34,850 bases of DNA, taken from the NCBI GenBank assembly GCA_021731695.1, contig JAKFWZ010000066.1, positions 1 through 34,850 on the forward strand, given 5' to 3'. The position numbers and the translations under genes were made by a program. This document shows, piece after piece, positions 8,047 to 18,752 of this stretch. Within the stretch, counting starts at the first letter, position 1; each line of letters starts with the position of its first letter. The notes beneath the pieces are model-generated. The model was not told where the DNA came from and did not search any database. It saw nothing but the letters and a program-made list of their open reading frames with translations. The stretch comes from Candidatus Daviesbacteria bacterium. Its GTDB lineage: Bacteria; Patescibacteriota; Microgenomatia; Daviesbacterales; UBA10151.

Positions 8047-8994
8047 TTAGGCAGCTTTACCAAAATACTCAGGGAATAATTTTTTTGCACCTATCTTTAA
8101 TAGATAAGGTTTAACGGATGTTTCTATCTCGTGTCTTGGGCCAAATCTTTTATCAACGATATAACCCTCTTTGAGATGAAGCTGCTCGCTTTCCGGTAGA
8201 TAAGCTACCACCGGCATTCGGGGTTTTCCTTTGCCGCCAAAAACATTTCTTAGAGTATCAGACATTCTTTCGGGAAAAGCCTCCAGATTAATTATAGTTA
8301 GTTGAGTAAAGATATCTTCATGGCCTCCCTCATCCCGTTTTACTGGTTCCAGAGCAAGATCAGCACCGAATTTTTGTTCAGGGTGTGCCTTAGGAACTAA
8401 TAGCCCATCTTTTGTTGTTCTGTATGCTACATCGTATTCGTCCTGAACTGTTTCATAATTCCCTTTCGTCCTTTTTTCCTGCCAACCTGCGTAAGCCGTC
8501 GTTGCTTCTTTGGAATCTAATCCATGATTTTCAGGGTTCCATGGGTATTGGTCTCTCAACCTATCTATCTCATCAATTCTTGCCTGCGGTACACCCTGAT
8601 ATAAAAGCAGATTTCTAGTTCTGACTACGTGTCTGGCTTCGGTAAAAACCCACCCATGACGTTTAAAATATAAATCCTCATAAGGCTGTACACCACCGAT
8701 TTCTGCCTTAGCGGCACCGCGAAATAAGCGTAGATGATCTTCGACTTCGTAAAGTCCTTCTGTTTGAATAATTAGCTCGCGGGGGACTTTCGGGCTTAGC
8801 ATGCGAACTGACTCAAAAAGCTTTTCATCATATGCGGGGTATTGTGTTTGAGCCGACCAAACCAAATAATTGCCTACGGCTTCTTTTCTGCGTTCATCAA
8901 GTTTTGCAGCCCTTCCATCGTAAGTAAGTGGAGCTTGGATTATATCCGGCATTCCTATTTTTGGTTGTGGTGCGTTTCCTTCAGGTCCTTGCAT
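8047..8994 (-). CDS. Acyl-ACP desaturase-like diiron protein (fatty acid desaturase type 2)
   Basis: A 315-aa soluble protein that fits the ferritin-like desaturase family. It shows the two ExxH iron-binding pairs EARH (119-122) and EGGH (222-225), a Glu in WQEKRT (173) matching the family's FQE-x-A-T helix, and a Glu candidate in IIQTEGLYEVEDHL (79). After the second pair, the helix HEDIFTQLTIINLEAFPERM and the following RNVF ... MP resemble the desaturase C-terminal part. Family enzymes put a double bond into acyl-ACP using O2 and ferredoxin. The match is from motif order only, so a related diiron oxygenase is possible. A -10 (GGTAAAAT) lies 10 nt before the ATG, and the gene follows the M23 gene by 23 bp. 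Confidence 0.65.
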   Translation of the reverse strand: MQGPEGNAPQPKIGMPDIIQAPLTYDGRAAKLDERRKEAVGNYLVWSAQTQYPAYDEKLFESVRMLSPKVPRELIIQTEGLYEVEDHLRLFRGAAKAEIGGVQPYEDLYFKRHGWVFTEARHVVRTRNLLLYQGVPQARIDEIDRLRDQYPWNPENHGLDSKEATTAYAGWQEKRTKGNYETVQDEYDVAYRTTKDGLLVPKAHPEQKFGADLALEPVKRDEGGHEDIFTQLTIINLEAFPERMSDTLRNVFGGKGKPRMPVVAYLPESEQLHLKEGYIVDKRFGPRHEIETSVKPYLLKIGAKKLFPEYFGKAA

Positions 8995-9017: not shown

Positions 9018-10196
9018 TTATGGAATGTGCCAGTAGAGAGTAACTATCCCATTTTTATGATCAACGAAAACTCCTTTTCCAACAGTTCCAGTTAAGTAAC
9101 AGGCTTTTGTATCCTGAGTTGTATATGCCTCGCCGTCTTCTGCTACATAAATTGATGCACCGAAAAAGTCTGCAATATCTAAACCTGCATGCGTTCCTAA
9201 AAAGTAAACCTGACCGAATCTTGTAGTGATATCACCATTACTACACGATCCTCCCTGTGAACAATCACTGCCTGTGTAGCTTAAATTTGGTTTCGCAAAT
9301 CTTCCTGAATCAATATATGGTTTTGGATCTACCTTATTCTCGCGGCCGATAATTACGCCATTTTCAACATGAGCTGGTGTCATCACTTCAAGATGCAAAT
9401 GCGGACCTGTAGTACACCCTGACATTCCAATGCCGGCAATCCGTTCGCCTTTTTTAACTGAACCAATCTTTGTACCGGCTCCTGCTAAAGCACGGGAGAT
9501 AGAATCCGTATCAGCCCTTAGTTTTGCAAGTAAGTCCTGAAACTTTTTCTCATCATTTTGAGTTGCCCGTAAAAGTTCATCTTTAGCCTTTTTTTGTTCA
9601 ACTAACTGTTCTGTATATTTTTCCAGATCCTTTTTTAATTTTTCCTGTTCTTCCTGACGGGTTTGTCGATCAGTTTTTTGGTCGTTATAAGTAGTTTTAG
9701 TGGCCTGAAGTTGATATAAAACTTTTTTATCGTTTGCCTGTGCAACCTGTAAATATTTAAGGCGTTCGAGCAAATCCGTAACACCACGGGAAGAAAAAAT
9801 CATATCTAAAGTTGTGGTGCCGGAGTGTTTATAGGTATTAACAATCCGCTCGAGTAAAACCTGTGAGATTGAATCGACCGAAGTTGATAATCTTTCGATT
9901 CGACCTGATAAGTCATTTATTTCTTTATCCAGTTTTTTAAGCTGAAATTCTGTTTCTTCAATTTTTAATTCAGTTAATTTATTTTGAGCGTCAATATATG
10001 CAAGCTGTGTCTTTAGAGTTTTTTCCTGAGCCTGTGACTGGGATAGTTGTTGCTGAACCTGTTTTATTTCTTCCTGCTTTTTCTTTAACTGGTCAGCCAA
10101 TTCATCGTAATTCTGAGCATTTACTGAAAAAGTCAGGAGTGAGGAGAAGAGAGTAAGGAGTAGAAATAGTGAAACTAATTTATTAATGATTTTCAT
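9018..10196 (-). CDS. Coiled-coil M23 peptidase with circularly permuted catalytic domain (FtsEX partner)
   Basis: A 392-aa exported murein hydrolase or hydrolase activator. Residues about 1-27 are a signal peptide (ending VNAQ), and about 30-235 form a long coiled coil rich in K/E/Q, as in EnvC and PcsB. The M23 domain then appears in reversed order: the VKKGERIAGIG ... GCTTGPHLHLEV block (HxH at 266-268) comes first, and the HAGLD block (336-340) plus VTLYWHIP (His 390) come last. Normal M23 proteins have HxxxD before HxH. All expected zinc and catalytic residues are present. It follows ftsE-ftsX on the same strand, so it is most likely the wall hydrolase or activator controlled by FtsEX during division. 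The hydrophobic core of its signal peptide lies in an inverted-repeat arm. Confidence 0.88.
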   Translation of the reverse strand: MKIINKLVSLFLLLTLFSSLLTFSVNAQNYDELADQLKKKQEEIKQVQQQLSQSQAQEKTLKTQLAYIDAQNKLTELKIEETEFQLKKLDKEINDLSGRIERLSTSVDSISQVLLERIVNTYKHSGTTTLDMIFSSRGVTDLLERLKYLQVAQANDKKVLYQLQATKTTYNDQKTDRQTRQEEQEKLKKDLEKYTEQLVEQKKAKDELLRATQNDEKKFQDLLAKLRADTDSISRALAGAGTKIGSVKKGERIAGIGMSGCTTGPHLHLEVMTPAHVENGVIIGRENKVDPKPYIDSGRFAKPNLSYTGSDCSQGGSCSNGDITTRFGQVYFLGTHAGLDIADFFGASIYVAEDGEAYTTQDTKACYLTGTVGKGVFVDHKNGIVTLYWHIP

Positions 10197-10278
10197 AAAC
10201 TTTGAGGGAAATGAGAAAGTTAGCGAGGGAATATTTGCTTTTAACTCATCACTACTTACTCATTACTCCTCACTTACT
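10132..10278. repeat. Inverted repeat spanning the ftsX-M23 junction
   Basis: Left arm around 10132-10169 (CAGGAGTGAGGAGAAG, GTAAGGAGTAG) and right arm around 10244-10278 (ACTACTTACTCATTACTCC, TCACTTACT) are loosely complementary. The left arm encodes part of the M23 signal peptide (LLTLFSSLLT) and the right arm contains the ftsX stop codon. Confidence 0.45.
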
Positions 10279-11140
10279 TAAGGTGTCTTCTGACTGCAGC
10301 GAACGATCCAATAAAACCGATAATAACAGCGGCTAAAAGTGCCACTCCGAGAAGCTGAAGCATAATCAGCGAAGAAACAGGAAACAAATCAATTTCAGCT
10401 AAACTAGGCTGCAAAAAGGGAGTAAAGTACCACGTTATTACATAAGTTGTTACCCAAGCCGTAACAGCACCGATAATGGCGTAAGTTATACCTTCCAAAA
10501 TAAATGGTGCGCGAACAAACCATGTTGATGCGCCTAAGAGCCTCATGATTTCAATTTCATTTCGTTTGATTCTGATTTTAAATCCAATAATCATTAAAAT
10601 AACCAGAACTGAGAAAGCGACTAAGAAACCGACAGAAACGCTTCCGACTGTTCTGATAACGCCTGTTGCTCGGGTTAGTGTTTGAATAACATCTTCCGGT
10701 ACAACAACTTCTTCAACTACCGGTTCCTGTTGGAGGATTTCCGCCACAACTGTGAGATCTGCGGGCGTATTTGTAGAGATCTCAAGAGATGCAGGAAGAA
10801 TGTTGGCTGTGACGAGTTCTAAAAGTGTGGGATTATTTTTATTGCGGTCCCTGTAAATCTGTAGTGCCTCATCTTTAGAAATAAATTGTAAATCTTTAAC
10901 TTTGCCAGTTTGTTTTAAAGCCTCCTCGATTTTGCTGACATCGTCGCGGGTAGCATTATCTTTGAAAAAGGCAATTGCCTGAGGTTTGCTCTCATAATAT
11001 CGCAAAATCTGTTGAGAACCGATTGCGATAAGCATAAAGAGCAGCAGTGTGAGAAATGTGAGGAACATGATCATTGTCGCAGCCAAAGCCTGATAGGGTG
11101 TCCTTCTTATATTTTTACGTACGTATGAAAAAACTCTCAT
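10274..11140 (-). CDS. ftsX: Cell division protein FtsX
   Basis: Membrane partner of FtsE; it passes ATP-driven conformational change to a wall hydrolase outside the cell. The 288-aa protein has the FtsX layout: a short cytoplasmic N-terminus with NIRRTPYQALAA, helix 1 (about 20-42), a large extracellular domain (about 45-165, with KPQAIAFFKDNATRDDV and ISKDEAL), then three helices with the RIKRNEIEIMRLLGAS loop typical of FtsX and ending GSFAAVRRHLK. The downstream gene is the coiled-coil M23 protein, its probable target. A repeat-filled gap of 124 bp separates it from ftsE. Confidence 0.93.
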   Translation of the reverse strand: MRVFSYVRKNIRRTPYQALAATMIMFLTFLTLLLFMLIAIGSQQILRYYESKPQAIAFFKDNATRDDVSKIEEALKQTGKVKDLQFISKDEALQIYRDRNKNNPTLLELVTANILPASLEISTNTPADLTVVAEILQQEPVVEEVVVPEDVIQTLTRATGVIRTVGSVSVGFLVAFSVLVILMIIGFKIRIKRNEIEIMRLLGASTWFVRAPFILEGITYAIIGAVTAWVTTYVITWYFTPFLQPSLAEIDLFPVSSLIMLQLLGVALLAAVIIGFIGSFAAVRRHLK

Positions 11141-11264: not shown

Positions 11265-11954
11265 CTAATGTATCTCATATCTTCCTTCTTTTTTATCTTT
11301 AATAATTTTGCCGTCGCGGATCGAGACAACTCTTCTTTTTAGTGTATTAACGATCTCAGCGTTGTGAGTTGCCATTAAAACAGTTGTGCCCCATGAATTT
11401 ATTTCATTTAAAAGCTGGATCACGCCCCATGAAGTTTGCGGATCTAAATCTCCGGTTGGTTCATCAGCTAAAAGTAAATCAGGTTTACCGATGATAGCTC
11501 TGGCAATTGCAGTTCTTTGAGCTTCTCCGCCTGAAAGTTGATTTGGAAAGAGATTTCTCTTATTCCAAATCTCGAAAAGCTTAAGGATTTTCTCAACTTC
11601 TTTTTCGATTTCCTCATCAGTTTTATTGCGGACTTCTAAAGCAATTGCTACATTTTCAAAAACAGTTCGATCATCTAATAATTTAAAATCCTGAAAAACG
11701 AAACCTAATTCTCTTCTGTAAAAAGGTAAGTTTGAACTTTTAATTTTGGAGATATCTTTATCAAAAACTAAAATTTTTCCTGAAGATGGGGCATATTCTT
11801 TCGCTAATAATCTTAAAAGAGTGGATTTTCCTGCACCTGAGGGGCCGACGAGAAACACAAATTCACCCGGCTCAACTTCGAGATTAATATCTTCAACCGC
11901 TAAGGTATTACCGTATTTTTTCGCTACATTTTCGAACTTAACAATATGTGCCAT
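11265..11954 (-). CDS. ftsE: Cell division ATP-binding protein FtsE
   Basis: ABC ATPase that pairs with FtsX at the division septum. At 229 aa it has Walker A GPSGAGKSTLLRLL (residues about 38-51), Q-loop VFQDFKLL, signature LSGGEAQRTAIARAI, Walker B LLLADEPTGDLD and the H-loop MATHNAEIV. The opening IVKFENVAKKYGNTLAVEDI is typical of FtsE. It is the first gene of the ftsE-ftsX-M23 set. Upstream (11957-12072) is a repeat, and no clear promoter or ribosome site is seen just before the ATG. Confidence 0.95.
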   Translation of the reverse strand: MAHIVKFENVAKKYGNTLAVEDINLEVEPGEFVFLVGPSGAGKSTLLRLLAKEYAPSSGKILVFDKDISKIKSSNLPFYRRELGFVFQDFKLLDDRTVFENVAIALEVRNKTDEEIEKEVEKILKLFEIWNKRNLFPNQLSGGEAQRTAIARAIIGKPDLLLADEPTGDLDPQTSWGVIQLLNEINSWGTTVLMATHNAEIVNTLKRRVVSIRDGKIIKDKKEGRYEIH

Positions 11955-12703: not shown

Positions 12704-13774
12704 TTAGTTAAGCTTAAGAATATTACCCTCTATAAATTCATCTAAATTACCGTCTAAAACCCCCTCAGCCTGCGAAGTTTCAATATCTGAGCGTAAATCT
12801 TTAACCATTTTATAAGGATGTAAAACATAGCTCCTGATCTGTGTGCCCCATGAAGCCTGAGTATTTCCTTTAAGGCTTGCAGTTTTTTGTAATTGTTCCT
12901 GTTTCTGTTTCTCCCAAAGCTTCCCGAGGAGTAGTTTCATGGCATTTTCTCTATTTTGAAGCTGGCTTCTTTCAGTTTGAGCGGTAACAGTGATTCCGGT
13001 CGGAATATGTTTAAGTCTTACCGCTGTTGAAACTTTATTAACATTTTGCCCGCCTGCGCCTTGCGACCTAAAAGCTTCGAACTCAATATCAGATTCAGGC
13101 ACGGCAAGTTCTCCAGTGTCTTCAATAACAGGTAAAACTTCTACCAAAGCAAAGGATGTTTGTCTTAAGCTATCGGCGTTGAAAGGGGATTGTCTTACTA
13201 ACCTATGAGTTCCGGCCTCGCGTCTTAACATTCCATAAGCAAAAGGCGCGTGCACAATCATCGACATAGTTTTAATCCCGGCTTCCTCTCCCGCAGATTC
13301 ATCAGTTACTTCAGCTTTCCAACCTTTTTTTTCAAAATATCTTTGATACATTCTCGCAAGCATCGATGCCCAATCCATTGCCTCGACTCCGCCGGTTCCA
13401 GAATGGATTGAAATAATGGCATCAGACTCATCATGTTCTCCTGACATAAATAATTTAAGTTCTAAATCTGATAACTCTTCTTCAATAGAGGAAATTTCTT
13501 TTTCTAAATCTTCTGCCATTTCTGCTTCACCCGAGATCTCAAGAGAATTTGAAATTCTGGAGTCTAGATCCTCTAGAGTTGAAAGCGTTTTTTGTTTTTC
13601 TGACAGTTGCCTGCTGATTAGTTGAGCCTGTTTTTGATCATTCCAAAAACCCTCCTTCATAGTCTGGGCTTCTAACTCCCTGATTTCACCGCGCAACTGG
13701 TCCAGATTAATCTGCGCTTTGATATTGTCAAAACGAACTTTAGCGCTTTTGATACTTTGCTGAATTTCTTCCAT
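12704..13774 (-). CDS. prfB: Peptide chain release factor 2
   Basis: Ends translation at UGA and UAA. At 356 aa it is of normal length with no programmed frameshift: the frame is open from ATG 13774. It has the N-terminal helical domain, the SPF tripeptide of RF2 in [12 protein letters not shown] (stop-codon reading), and [19 protein letters not shown] with the GGQ that triggers hydrolysis, followed by the basic KQEQLQ ... LRSDIETSQ region. Its presence argues that TGA is a real stop in this organism, which matters for the NYN gene opposite. A TATAAT box lies 6 nt before the ATG, so the mRNA is probably leaderless. It diverges from the NYN gene across 44 bp. Confidence 0.95.
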
Positions 13775-15589: not shown

Positions 15590-16786
15590 TTACTCGTATC
15601 TTAAAGCAGTGATTGGGTCTAGGCGGGAGGCGCGGATGGCGGGGGCTACGCCGAAGATAACTCCAACTAACATTGAAAATCCAAAGGATAGTGCAACTGA
15701 CCACCAAGTTATAGTCGTTGTAAAGAAAATATTAACGATTAAAGAAACTCCGATTCCGAGTAATATTCCTAAAACTCCGCCTAAACCTGAGAGAGTTAAA
15801 GCTTCGATTAAAAATTGATTTCGAATATCTTTTGCCCTTGCGCCTAGTGCCTTGCGGAGTCCAATCTCTCTGGTCCTTTCAGTAACTGACACAAGCATGA
15901 TATTCATAACACCAATTCCTCCGACTAAAAGTGAAATTGCTGCGACTCCGCCTAAGGCTAAAGTTAAAACGCCTGTAATCTGCGAAATAGTTGATAATGC
16001 TTGTTCCTGTGTTTGAACTGTAAAATCATCTCCAGAGATTCTTTTTTCTAAAAGCTTTTTAATATCGGTCTGAATCTGATCTATGTCTTCAGTTTTATAA
16101 ACTGAAATATAAATGGCATTTGGTTGATCAATTCCGAATTGTTTTCTGCCGGCTTCCAGCGGAATAAATGCAGAATTATCCTGATCGACTCCGAAGGCGG
16201 CGCCACGGGATTTCGTAACACCAACAACCTGATATTTTAAATTGCCGATTTGGATAGTCTTGCTTACTGGACTCGAATCGCCGAAAAGATTTTTCGAAGC
16301 AGTTGGTCCTAAAACTGCGACTCTTTTTCCAGAATCAGATTCTGCTTTATTAATAAATCTGCCTTTATCGACTTCGACGGAAGTTACGATCTTTGTATAA
16401 ATATCCTCGACACCAGAAATAGTCATATTTCTACTGGTTTTATTTCCATATTTTGCAGTTGAAGCTTGTTGGGTAACTGTTGAAACGTCAGCGTCTCCTT
16501 TTAATTCTCTTTTTAAATTAGTGACGTCCTGAAACTGTAATCTATTTACTGTTGATCCTCCCGGACCGCGACCTGCGCCGCCGGTTTGCCCGGGGATAAC
16601 GAAAATTAAATTAGAACCAAATGAGGAGATTTGTTCCGTAATAAAACTCTGAAGACCTGAAACTAAAGCGACTAAAATAATGACGGAAAAAACGCCGATG
16701 ACGATCCCAAGGGTTGTGAGGAAAGAGCGCATACGATTGCGGAGGATTGCGGTGAAGGATAGTTTTAGTGTTTCTAAGATGTTCAT
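15590..16786 (-). CDS. MacB-type ABC transporter permease
   Basis: Membrane subunit of a three-part efflux or export system. The 398-aa protein has helix 1 after NILETLKLSFTAILRNRMRS with TTLGIVIGVFSVI, a large extracytoplasmic MacB_PCD-like domain (about residues 45-270), then three C-terminal helices around GGVAAISLLVGGIGVMNIML and the conserved RTREIGLRKALGAR coupling loop. I chose ATG 16786, because the frame upstream to 16834 runs through a palindromic repeat. The ATPase (16894) and adaptor protein (17682) precede it on the same strand. In a cell without an outer membrane it would act at the single membrane, perhaps on peptides, antibiotics or lipoproteins. Confidence 0.9.
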   Translation of the reverse strand: MNILETLKLSFTAILRNRMRSFLTTLGIVIGVFSVIILVALVSGLQSFITEQISSFGSNLIFVIPGQTGGAGRGPGGSTVNRLQFQDVTNLKRELKGDADVSTVTQQASTAKYGNKTSRNMTISGVEDIYTKIVTSVEVDKGRFINKAESDSGKRVAVLGPTASKNLFGDSSPVSKTIQIGNLKYQVVGVTKSRGAAFGVDQDNSAFIPLEAGRKQFGIDQPNAIYISVYKTEDIDQIQTDIKKLLEKRISGDDFTVQTQEQALSTISQITGVLTLALGGVAAISLLVGGIGVMNIMLVSVTERTREIGLRKALGARAKDIRNQFLIEALTLSGLGGVLGILLGIGVSLIVNIFFTTTITWWSVALSFGFSMLVGVIFGVAPAIRASRLDPITALRYE

Positions 16787-16789
16787 ACT

Positions 16790-16888
16790 GTTAATAAACC
16801 AATAAAGCCAATAACCCAATAAACAAATGCCCAATAAGAATTAAAAACAAAATTGGGAATTGGTTTTATTTGTTATATTTATCATTGG
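16790..16888. repeat. Palindromic AT-rich repeat between the MacB-type genes
   Basis: The left arm AATAAACCAATAAAGCCAAT with CCCAATAAACAAATGCCC pairs with the right arm GGTTTTATTTGTTATATTT and ATCATTGGTTTATT. It makes a long weak hairpin inside the ABC operon. Confidence 0.55.
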
Positions 16889-16893
16889 TTTAT

Positions 16894-17586
16894 TCATTTC
16901 GTGTCTTCTCCTTTCTCGCTAGTTATTTCGCCGTCTTTTACCCTAATAATTTTATGTGCATGTTTTGCAACGACAGTATCATGAGTTATTAAAACAACTG
17001 TTTTGCCTTCTTTGTGTAATTTTTTCAAAAGCTCCATGGCTTCTTCTCCGGACTTACTATCCAAATTTCCTGTGGGTTCATCGGCAAAAATAATATCCGG
17101 ATTTGAAACCAAAGCTCTTGCTATAGCCACCCTTTGCTGCTGTCCTCCGGAAAGTTGAGAAGGACGCGATTTATACTTGTCGGAAAGCCCGACTGCGTCC
17201 AGGGCTTTATGCGCGCGTTTTAATCTTTCTGCACCTGAGACTCCAGAATAAACTAAAGGAAGCGCGACATTATCTTCTGCAGAAGTCCTCGCTAAAAGAT
17301 TAAAACTTTGAAAAACAAAACCGAGTTTTTGGTTTCTTAACTTTGCTAGATGGTCATCTTTTAAATGAGCAACGTCCTGATTATCTAAATGATATGAGCC
17401 AGTTGTTGGGCGATCTAAAAGTCCCAGAATATTCATAAGTGTGGATTTGCCTGAACCGGAAGGACCGACGATTGCAACGAATTCGCCTTTATCAATTTCT
17501 AAATTAATATCTTTTAAAGCTTGAAATGATAGATCCTCATCAAGCTGAAAAACTTTATTAACATCGGTTAATTTAATTAGGGACAT
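16894..17586 (-). CDS. MacB/LolD-type ABC transporter ATP-binding protein
   Basis: ATPase driving the permease next to it. At 230 aa it has Walker A GPSGSGKSTLMNILG (residues about 40-54), Q-loop VFQSFNLL, signature LSGGQQQRVAIARAL, Walker B IIFADEPTGNLD, and the switch His in LITHDTVVAKHA. The opening LIKLTDVNKVFQLDED is typical of the macrolide-export/LolD group. It lies between the adaptor gene upstream and the permease gene downstream, each separated by a palindromic repeat. Confidence 0.93.
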   Translation of the reverse strand: MSLIKLTDVNKVFQLDEDLSFQALKDINLEIDKGEFVAIVGPSGSGKSTLMNILGLLDRPTTGSYHLDNQDVAHLKDDHLAKLRNQKLGFVFQSFNLLARTSAEDNVALPLVYSGVSGAERLKRAHKALDAVGLSDKYKSRPSQLSGGQQQRVAIARALVSNPDIIFADEPTGNLDSKSGEEAMELLKKLHKEGKTVVLITHDTVVAKHAHKIIRVKDGEITSEKGEDTK

Positions 17587-17594
17587 ATTATTTT

Positions 17595-17667
17595 GTCATT
17601 CCAGACTTGATCTGGAATCCAGGCTTTATGCTAAGTCTTCTGGATCCCGCATCAAGTGCGGGATGAC
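17595..17667. repeat. Palindromic interspersed repeat (GTCATTCC family)
   Basis: Begins GTCATTCCAGACTTGATCTGG and ends CCCGCATCAAGTGCGGGATGAC; both arms fold into their own hairpins and the ends are inverted copies. It fills the gap between adaptor and ATPase genes. Confidence 0.75.
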
Positions 17668-17681
17668 AAGGCAATTATTAT

Positions 17682-18752
17682 TTAAGATTGCCCTGGAAAT
17701 TTGAAACTATTTGATTCAGGGAGTTTTACATCTTCAGGATTTGTAACAACCTCATCTTCCGGAGACAATCCTGATTTAACTTCAACAACAGTATCAGATT
17801 GAAGCCCGGTTTCTATTTTGACCTTTTCGTATGTATCGCCTTTTTTAATATATACTTCATCCGCATCCATTAAAGCTTCGACAGGGATTGTGTTAACGCC
17901 GCTGACTTCATTTGTAATAATATCTGCCTGACCGTTAAGTCCTGAAACAAAATTAATCTCAGGTTTACCTAAAACAAGTTTTACAATGACGACTGTTGCG
18001 CCTGAATCAGTAGTTTCGATTGCCGGATTAATATCAGAAACTGTTGCTTCAAAAGTTTGATCAGGATATGAATTTAGAGTGACACTGGCTTTTTGCCCCG
18101 ATTTAACTAAACCTATATCTGATTCATCAATTTCAGCTTCAAAAACATACTGTGAATTATCAACGATCTGAGCGATTATATCAGTAGGTCCAACGACCTG
18201 ACCCGCGTTAGGATCAGCTTTGGTAACAATTCCGGAAAGCGGTGCATAGATATTTGCATCCTGAAATGCCCTTTGAGCCGCTTTTATATCGTCATATGCA
18301 CTATCCCGCGCTTTTTGGGCGTTAACTCTTTCTTCTCTTTCTGTATAATCTTCATCACTAACCTGATCGTGAAGATCATCCTCGACTCTTTTGGCTGTTG
18401 AATCTTTCGCTTCAAAACTATTTCTTGCTTGTTGTAAGTTAATCTGTAGATCCTGGGTATCTAAACTCGCGATTAGTTTTCCTTTATTAACGAAGTCTCC
18501 GGATTTTACTCCTATATAATTTAACTTCCCGCTGATTTTAAATCTTAAATCTGCAGAGTCGGTGCCTTCTAAAGTTCCTGATGATGAAATCAGTTCCTTA
18601 ACATCACCTTTTTGCATTTTAATTGTTAAGACTGGTTCAGATGCTTGTTTGGGTGCAAATACAAAATACAAAGCGCCAATTATTATAAGGAGAAGAGGGA
18701 TCCAGATTTTTTTAGGCCAGTGCCAAAATTTAAAGAATTTAAGCAGTTTCAT
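17682..18752 (-). CDS. HlyD/MacA-type efflux adaptor (periplasmic adaptor family)
   Basis: A 356-aa protein with an N-terminal membrane anchor (about residues 16-33, IWIPLLLIIIGALYFVFA) and the adaptor layout. There is a lipoyl half (GKLNYIGVKSGDFVNKGKLI), a helical hairpin rich in charged residues (about 105-160), the second lipoyl half (NIYAPLSGIVTKADPNAGQVV), a beta-barrel domain (FEAEIDESDIGLVKSGQKAS) and a C-terminal domain (VETGL-like KIETGLQSDTVVEVKSGL). It heads the operon with the ATPase and permease. An extended -10 (TGCTATGAT) lies 9 nt before the ATG, so the operon mRNA probably begins at or next to the start codon. Confidence 0.9.
   Translation of the reverse strand: MKLLKFFKFWHWPKKIWIPLLLIIIGALYFVFAPKQASEPVLTIKMQKGDVKELISSSGTLEGTDSADLRFKISGKLNYIGVKSGDFVNKGKLIASLDTQDLQINLQQARNSFEAKDSTAKRVEDDLHDQVSDEDYTEREERVNAQKARDSAYDDIKAAQRAFQDANIYAPLSGIVTKADPNAGQVVGPTDIIAQIVDNSQYVFEAEIDESDIGLVKSGQKASVTLNSYPDQTFEATVSDINPAIETTDSGATVVIVKLVLGKPEINFVSGLNGQADIITNEVSGVNTIPVEALMDADEVYIKKGDTYEKVKIETGLQSDTVVEVKSGLSPEDEVVTNPEDVKLPESNSFKFPGQS

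Follow-up and report, generated by a model that had tools for sequence, protein, structure and literature searches.

EnvC of E. coli and V. cholerae (8tzl, 6tpi) is controlled by FtsEX and consists of a coiled coil followed by a domain of M23 fold. It has no zinc ligands and acts by activating amidases. The Gram-positive FtsEX effectors PcsB, CwlO and RipC also have an FtsEX-controlled coiled coil, but their effector domains are CHAP or NlpC/P60 cysteine peptidases rather than M23. In other bacteria, such as Caloramator, the slot behind ftsX is held by a coiled-coil protein with a canonical M23 domain, in which HxxxD precedes HxH and the end is an NP-x-x-YL tail. M23, or LytM, is among the most studied of the peptidoglycan hydrolase folds. 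Its zinc is bound by two histidines and one aspartate, and the first histidine of HxH and the histidine of YxH act on water (PMC9662197). The linear order of motifs in the family is HxxxD, YxH, HxH.

The window, a stretch of 34,850 nucleotides from Candidatus Daviesbacteria bacterium (GCA_021731695.1, contig JAKFWZ010000066.1), encodes a protein that resembles each of these systems in part. It has a coiled coil followed by an M23 domain, it occupies the slot behind ftsX, and it has HxxxD, HxH, YxH and the sequence of both halves in common with LytM/lysostaphin-type M23B. In contrast to the latter, the order of the halves is swapped and the new termini lie after the catalytic YxH. We read the protein as an FtsEX-controlled divisome peptidoglycan hydrolase composed of an EnvC/PcsB-type coiled coil and a circularly permuted M23 zinc endopeptidase, with a probability of about 0.83. 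Comparison of sequences establishes the permuted order, the conservation of the ligands, the linkage to ftsEX and the spread across the phylum. The M23 family and the FtsEX system were already known; what is new is a structural variant, the permuted domain. Among open-access papers we found none on a permuted M23 or LytM domain (subscription papers and preprints were outside the scope of the search), a review of M23 (PMC9662197) does not mention permutation, and the permuted form is likewise absent from solved structures.

The permuted M23 gene and its neighbours

The gene (ORF 9018-10196, minus strand; coding 9021..10196, stop TAA at 9018-9020) encodes a protein of 392 aa, P0001, and has ftsX and ftsE directly upstream. 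The gene order in the window is prfB (12704..13774, minus strand, named from its sequence), ftsE (11265..11954, minus strand), ftsX (10274..11140, minus strand) and permuted M23. A position behind ftsE-ftsX had been claimed in the earlier note, and profile searches bore this out: FtsE scored 270.8 bits with TIGR02673 (cut-off 264.85), and FtsX scored 63.8 bits with FtsX_ECD PF18075 (cut-off 23.5) and also matched FtsX PF02687. The TIGR00439 score of FtsX was 172.7 bits, under the equivalog cut-off of 255. The order prfB-ftsE-ftsX-effector is conserved, with relatives of prfB upstream of ftsE in L038, L039, L057, L061, L067, L102, L103, L117 and L124. Downstream, the permuted M23 gene adjoins a gene for a 315-aa protein (8047-8994, minus strand) that matches no Pfam family. 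Genes for a MacA/MacB-like adaptor, ATPase and permease lie at 15590-18752 (minus strand), as judged from ORF translations alone.

The protein begins with a predicted signal peptide or N-terminal hydrophobic segment (aa 1-27; 10116..10196, minus strand; MKIINKLVSLFLLLTLFSSLLTFSVNAQ), for which AF2 gave a helix at 2-18 and then low confidence at 17-27. A long EnvC/PcsB-type coiled coil follows (aa 30-237; 9486..10109, minus strand; AF2 helices 30-125, 129-135 and 139-237). EnvC NF008644 matched aa 35-239 with an E of 2.4e-9, and the match of the coiled coil to CC_PcsB (E 2.7e-5) was just under the cut-off of that profile. The remainder is the M23 domain with its halves swapped. Part 1 (aa 240-298; 9303..9479, minus strand) corresponds to the canonical C-terminal half and has as landmarks a V-x-x-G-x-x-I-A strand, TGPHLHLEV and a VDP-x-x-YI tail. 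A seam at aa 297-302 (9291..9308, minus strand) links VDPKPYID, the former C-terminus, to KP, the former N-terminus, and part 2 (aa 303-392; 9021..9290, minus strand) corresponds to the canonical N-terminal half.

The order HLH, HAGLD and C-terminal YWH that had been reported for this protein was found again at aa 266-268, 336-340 and 388-390. HLH (9393..9401, minus strand) is the HxH motif, with the catalytic histidine and a zinc-ligand histidine; HAGLD (9177..9191, minus strand) provides the HxxxD zinc ligands; and YWH (9027..9035, minus strand) carries the catalytic-type histidine. The chain ends in YWHIP, so the stop lies two residues past this histidine. All zinc ligands (aa 336/340 and 266/268) and the catalytic histidine of YxH (aa 390) are thus present.

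Swapped halves of one M23 domain

The Pfam M23 profile (PF01551) gave the whole 392-aa protein 46.7 bits against a cut-off of 28.7, with the match split into two stretches. The pieces do not overlap on the profile: the N-terminal-side stretch (aa 246-273) covers profile positions 62-89, and the C-terminal stretch covers positions 2-58. When the halves were swapped back in silico, the un-permuted chimera gave a single match to positions 2-89 of 96, with 57.9 bits versus 50.3 for the two pieces. The two pieces are therefore complementary, and the joined pieces lack just three profile positions, at the cut. PF01551 also matched all 36 of the permuted homologues that were aligned. EnvC matches M23 in pieces only, in canonical order, whereas the window protein is permuted and has kept its ligands. 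Because the window protein and 104 homologues have the motif order HxH, HxxxD, YxH, we class the domain as a permuted variant of M23 and not as an ordinary member.

AF2 folded residues 218-392 into one confident domain (pLDDT 87.7, pTM 0.81), from an input alignment that contained canonical M23 halves as fragments and may guide the predicted fold; the strands of the model are consistent with a rearranged M23. For the full protein, AF2 gave long helices and the M23 domain at lower confidence (78.8, pTM 0.44). The best Foldseek match of this full-length model was V. cholerae EnvC (8tzl, E 1.4e-4), and PcsB 4cgk and EnvC 6tpi were matched as well. Searched against the PDB, the domain model returned just weak unrelated matches and no M23 structure, plausibly because Foldseek aligns in sequence order. 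No PDB chain matched the permuted-domain profile in permuted order. The earlier note had proposed structure prediction as a check on its claim of a single permuted M23 domain with all ligands kept. That claim is supported by the AF2 domain, the complementary pieces, the chimera match and the residue conservation given below, and we infer that the two halves come together as a single M23 fold in the same chain.

Distribution and conservation

Homologues were present in 51 of 57 relatives searched, the genome of origin included. When a permuted-domain profile was run on 380 Patescibacteria genomes, strong matches (E <= 1e-20) were obtained in about 82 genomes, most of them spanning the whole domain as one piece. 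The motif order of fetched loci was decided with half-domain profiles, since coverage at low score is not diagnostic by itself (matches over 6-168 in G183, G269 and G402 proved to be canonical proteins). By this means 104 distinct proteins were assigned the permuted order; they come from 52 families of Patescibacteria, of which 24 belong to the class of the window and 28 do not. A further 31 of the fetched proteins were canonical. The linkage to FtsEX that the earlier note suggested for "this lineage" extends across the phylum, and the permuted protein is shared by at least 52 families. Among 199 Bacillota genomes no clear permuted match was found; ten weak matches (E ~1e-16 to 1e-15) mostly covered one half, and those fetched were canonical. 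The host genome has four more M23 proteins (C4, C38, C23 and C32 of G000), each canonical in order.

Across 36 aligned permuted domains, with identities as low as about 26%, both histidines of HxH, the histidine and aspartate of HxxxD, and the tyrosine and histidine of YxH were invariant. Among all 104 homologues, H266 was kept in 103, H268 in 102, H336 in 96, D340 in 102 and H390 in 101, the remaining three cases at H390 being alignment gaps. In 71 of the 104 proteins the chain ends exactly two residues after this last histidine. Proline replaces the HxxxD histidine in six of the 104, so activity is not obvious for all members. One lineage with this proline (L109, L110, L114, L116 and L123) has the sequence SHRGxGWPGGxD, in which a histidine a few residues upstream of the proline might serve as a replacement ligand. 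The protein of another genome (G002, L028:1249-2361) lacks the whole HxH segment with the rest conserved, through natural loss or an assembly fault. In G025 (L011, L068) two different permuted effectors lie on separate contigs, possibly as two genes or from mixed strains.

Proposed function and mechanism

The most likely role of the permuted protein is that of a catalytically active peptidoglycan endopeptidase gated by FtsEX. The biochemistry of M23 (PMC9662197) points to an active zinc endopeptidase, and the known FtsEX systems to control by FtsE and FtsX through the coiled coil. The old N- and C-termini of M23 would have been fused by the short seam, and the chain would have acquired its new ends at a break between the strand with the catalytic YxH and the V-x-x-G-x-x-I strand. 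The secreted enzyme would cut peptide cross-links at the septum. ATP turnover by FtsE would drive FtsX, which would move the coiled coil. We speculate that this movement could be passed straight to the active site with no separate restraining arm, because the coiled coil joins next to the YxH segment and the end of the chain is there also. A permuted FtsEX effector across much of Patescibacteria would serve as a natural experiment on the gating of hydrolases by FtsEX coiled coils: the site at which the coiled coil is attached to the catalytic domain has changed, and everything else in the system has stayed as it was.

A more far-reaching proposal, which we consider rather unlikely, is that the permutation is itself a regulatory device, fixed early in Patescibacteria and with a separate origin in cyanophages. 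The FtsX-bound coiled coil would then pull on the active site, and ATP turnover by FtsEX would open or complete the zinc site, a mode of gating that differs from the restraining arm in EnvC.

The EnvC-like coiled coil and the ftsEX neighbourhood would also suit a permuted LytM protein with no hydrolytic activity of its own that serves as the activator of an amidase, as would the loss of the HxxxD histidine in the one lineage with proline described above. EnvC, however, is marked by a degenerate LytM site and an amidase partner. The window protein and most of its homologues retain all the zinc ligands and catalytic histidines, and a search of the host genome for Amidase_3 found none, so there is no classical EnvC partner. 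We therefore regard such an activator as quite unlikely.

Probable closure of the domain within one chain

The order of motifs alone does not distinguish closure within a chain from closure between chains. The M23 pieces could then be remnants of two degenerate domains, or could complete each other only in a domain-swapped dimer. Linkers between the old M23 ends of 10-30 residues occur in a number of homologues, and those of 20-30 residues, found in some families, would leave room for such arrangements. However, the seam (NP-x-x-YL tail to WP head) has only some 4-6 residues in the window protein and many homologues, which indicates that the old ends are joined almost directly. The non-overlapping, complementary pieces, the single-chain AF2 domain and the joint conservation of both halves across 52 families also argue against these arrangements, and we consider them very unlikely. 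Two separate degenerate domains had been named beforehand as the outcome that would contradict a single permuted M23. This candidate was rejected, as the missing halves were found in none of the 104 proteins.

Linkage to FtsEX and refilling of the effector slot

A survey of CPR FtsEX loci for the same order, also proposed beforehand, showed that the link to FtsEX is phylum-wide. FtsX is encoded directly upstream in 91 of the 98 permuted proteins with enough upstream sequence for the test; six more could not be judged. This linkage bears on whether the protein is instead an exported lysin directed against host or neighbouring cells and has no role in division. Patescibacteria are often epibionts, and a permuted M23 is also found in a phage virion protein. 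Given the 91 FtsX neighbours and a coiled coil that resembles those of FtsEX effectors, we find a lysin hardly credible and retain the divisome hydrolase. The chance that a frameshift, a misassembly or fortuitous motif matches account for the permuted order is negligible: the host genome is a draft assembly of 102 contigs, but the reading frame is open, and the identical order recurs in 52 families and in an independently assembled congener (Daviesbacteria, L009/L038) with 79% identity and no internal stops. Its presence in more than 50 families in the same gene slot confirms that the permuted enzyme is real and widespread and not a reading error.

We also analysed the slot downstream of ftsX at 60 loci drawn from genomes with no strong permuted match. 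Here the slot was taken by canonical M23 proteins with a coiled coil, by C39-like peptidases, by CHAP domains or by genes of other kinds that are unrelated. A canonical coiled-coil M23 adjoins FtsX in Caloramator (L046) and in Patescibacteria (L147, L156, L157, L167, L174, L184). C39-like (papain-type) domains on an FtsX-linked coiled coil were seen at L034, L040, L059, L060, L063, L064, L066 and L067 and at the further loci L144, L146, L149, L150 and L182. In three families of the class of the window (f7, f16 and f17), one genome has a permuted M23 and another a C39 domain on the same coiled coil. Since C39-like and permuted M23 domains alternate on one coiled coil, sometimes within a family, the effector domain has been swapped repeatedly, and the slot has been refilled with permuted M23, canonical M23, C39-like and CHAP domains. 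CHAP-type domains in the gene after ftsX were noted in other Patescibacteria families (L145, L148 and L160; for the first two this was confirmed with Pfam CHAP). In family f74 (L104:1243-3663, L115:1433-4119), ftsE, ftsX and a permuted M23 are followed directly by a canonical coiled-coil M23.

Origin of the permutation

A tree was built over 135 columns from M23 domains, 57 of them permuted and 31 canonical. On the best tree the two orders require 3 changes, compared with a mean of 25.8 when shuffled, and a tree constrained to place all permuted domains in a single clade was not rejected (p-AU 0.31). One ancient permutation is thus possible from the domain alignment; a single origin is not proven, because the best tree requires three changes. 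Few permutation events are favoured because the cut point after YxH, the coiled coil and the gene slot are all shared. The seam suggests a likely origin of the permuted M23: an M23 domain behind the same coiled coil was duplicated in tandem and in frame, and the outer halves were then lost. The permutation also provides a rare genomic change that can be tracked for CPR phylogeny.

A permuted M23 domain in cyanophages

A Foldseek search of the AF2 domain model against viral models matched an Aurunvirus virion protein (cyanophage S-TIM5, AEZ65701.1, H6WFX6) over 167 columns with 17% identity, which taken by itself is a weak match (E 0.06, TM 0.43). The motifs of H6WFX6 run HLH, HTGVD, LAHL and are thus in permuted order. 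Profile-profile comparison of the CPR permuted M23 with the cyanophage protein gave a co-linear alignment (97.2%, E 3.3e-11). As in the window protein, HxH comes before HxxxD; unlike it, the phage protein is structural and has neither the coiled coil nor an FtsEX context. Other viral candidates were rejected: tblastn matches in a Plectonema phage and a Streptomyces phage spanned the query but were canonical in order, and P60 gp33, the third viral Foldseek match, lacks the M23 motifs. The HxH, HxGxD and AHL of the S-TIM5 protein, whose gene lies at L143:7229-10222 (JQ245707.2 106128-109121), are also present in S-TIM66 and S-TIM54 (relatives at L208 and L209). A virion structural protein conserved in three cyanophages is thus a second context for the permuted M23.
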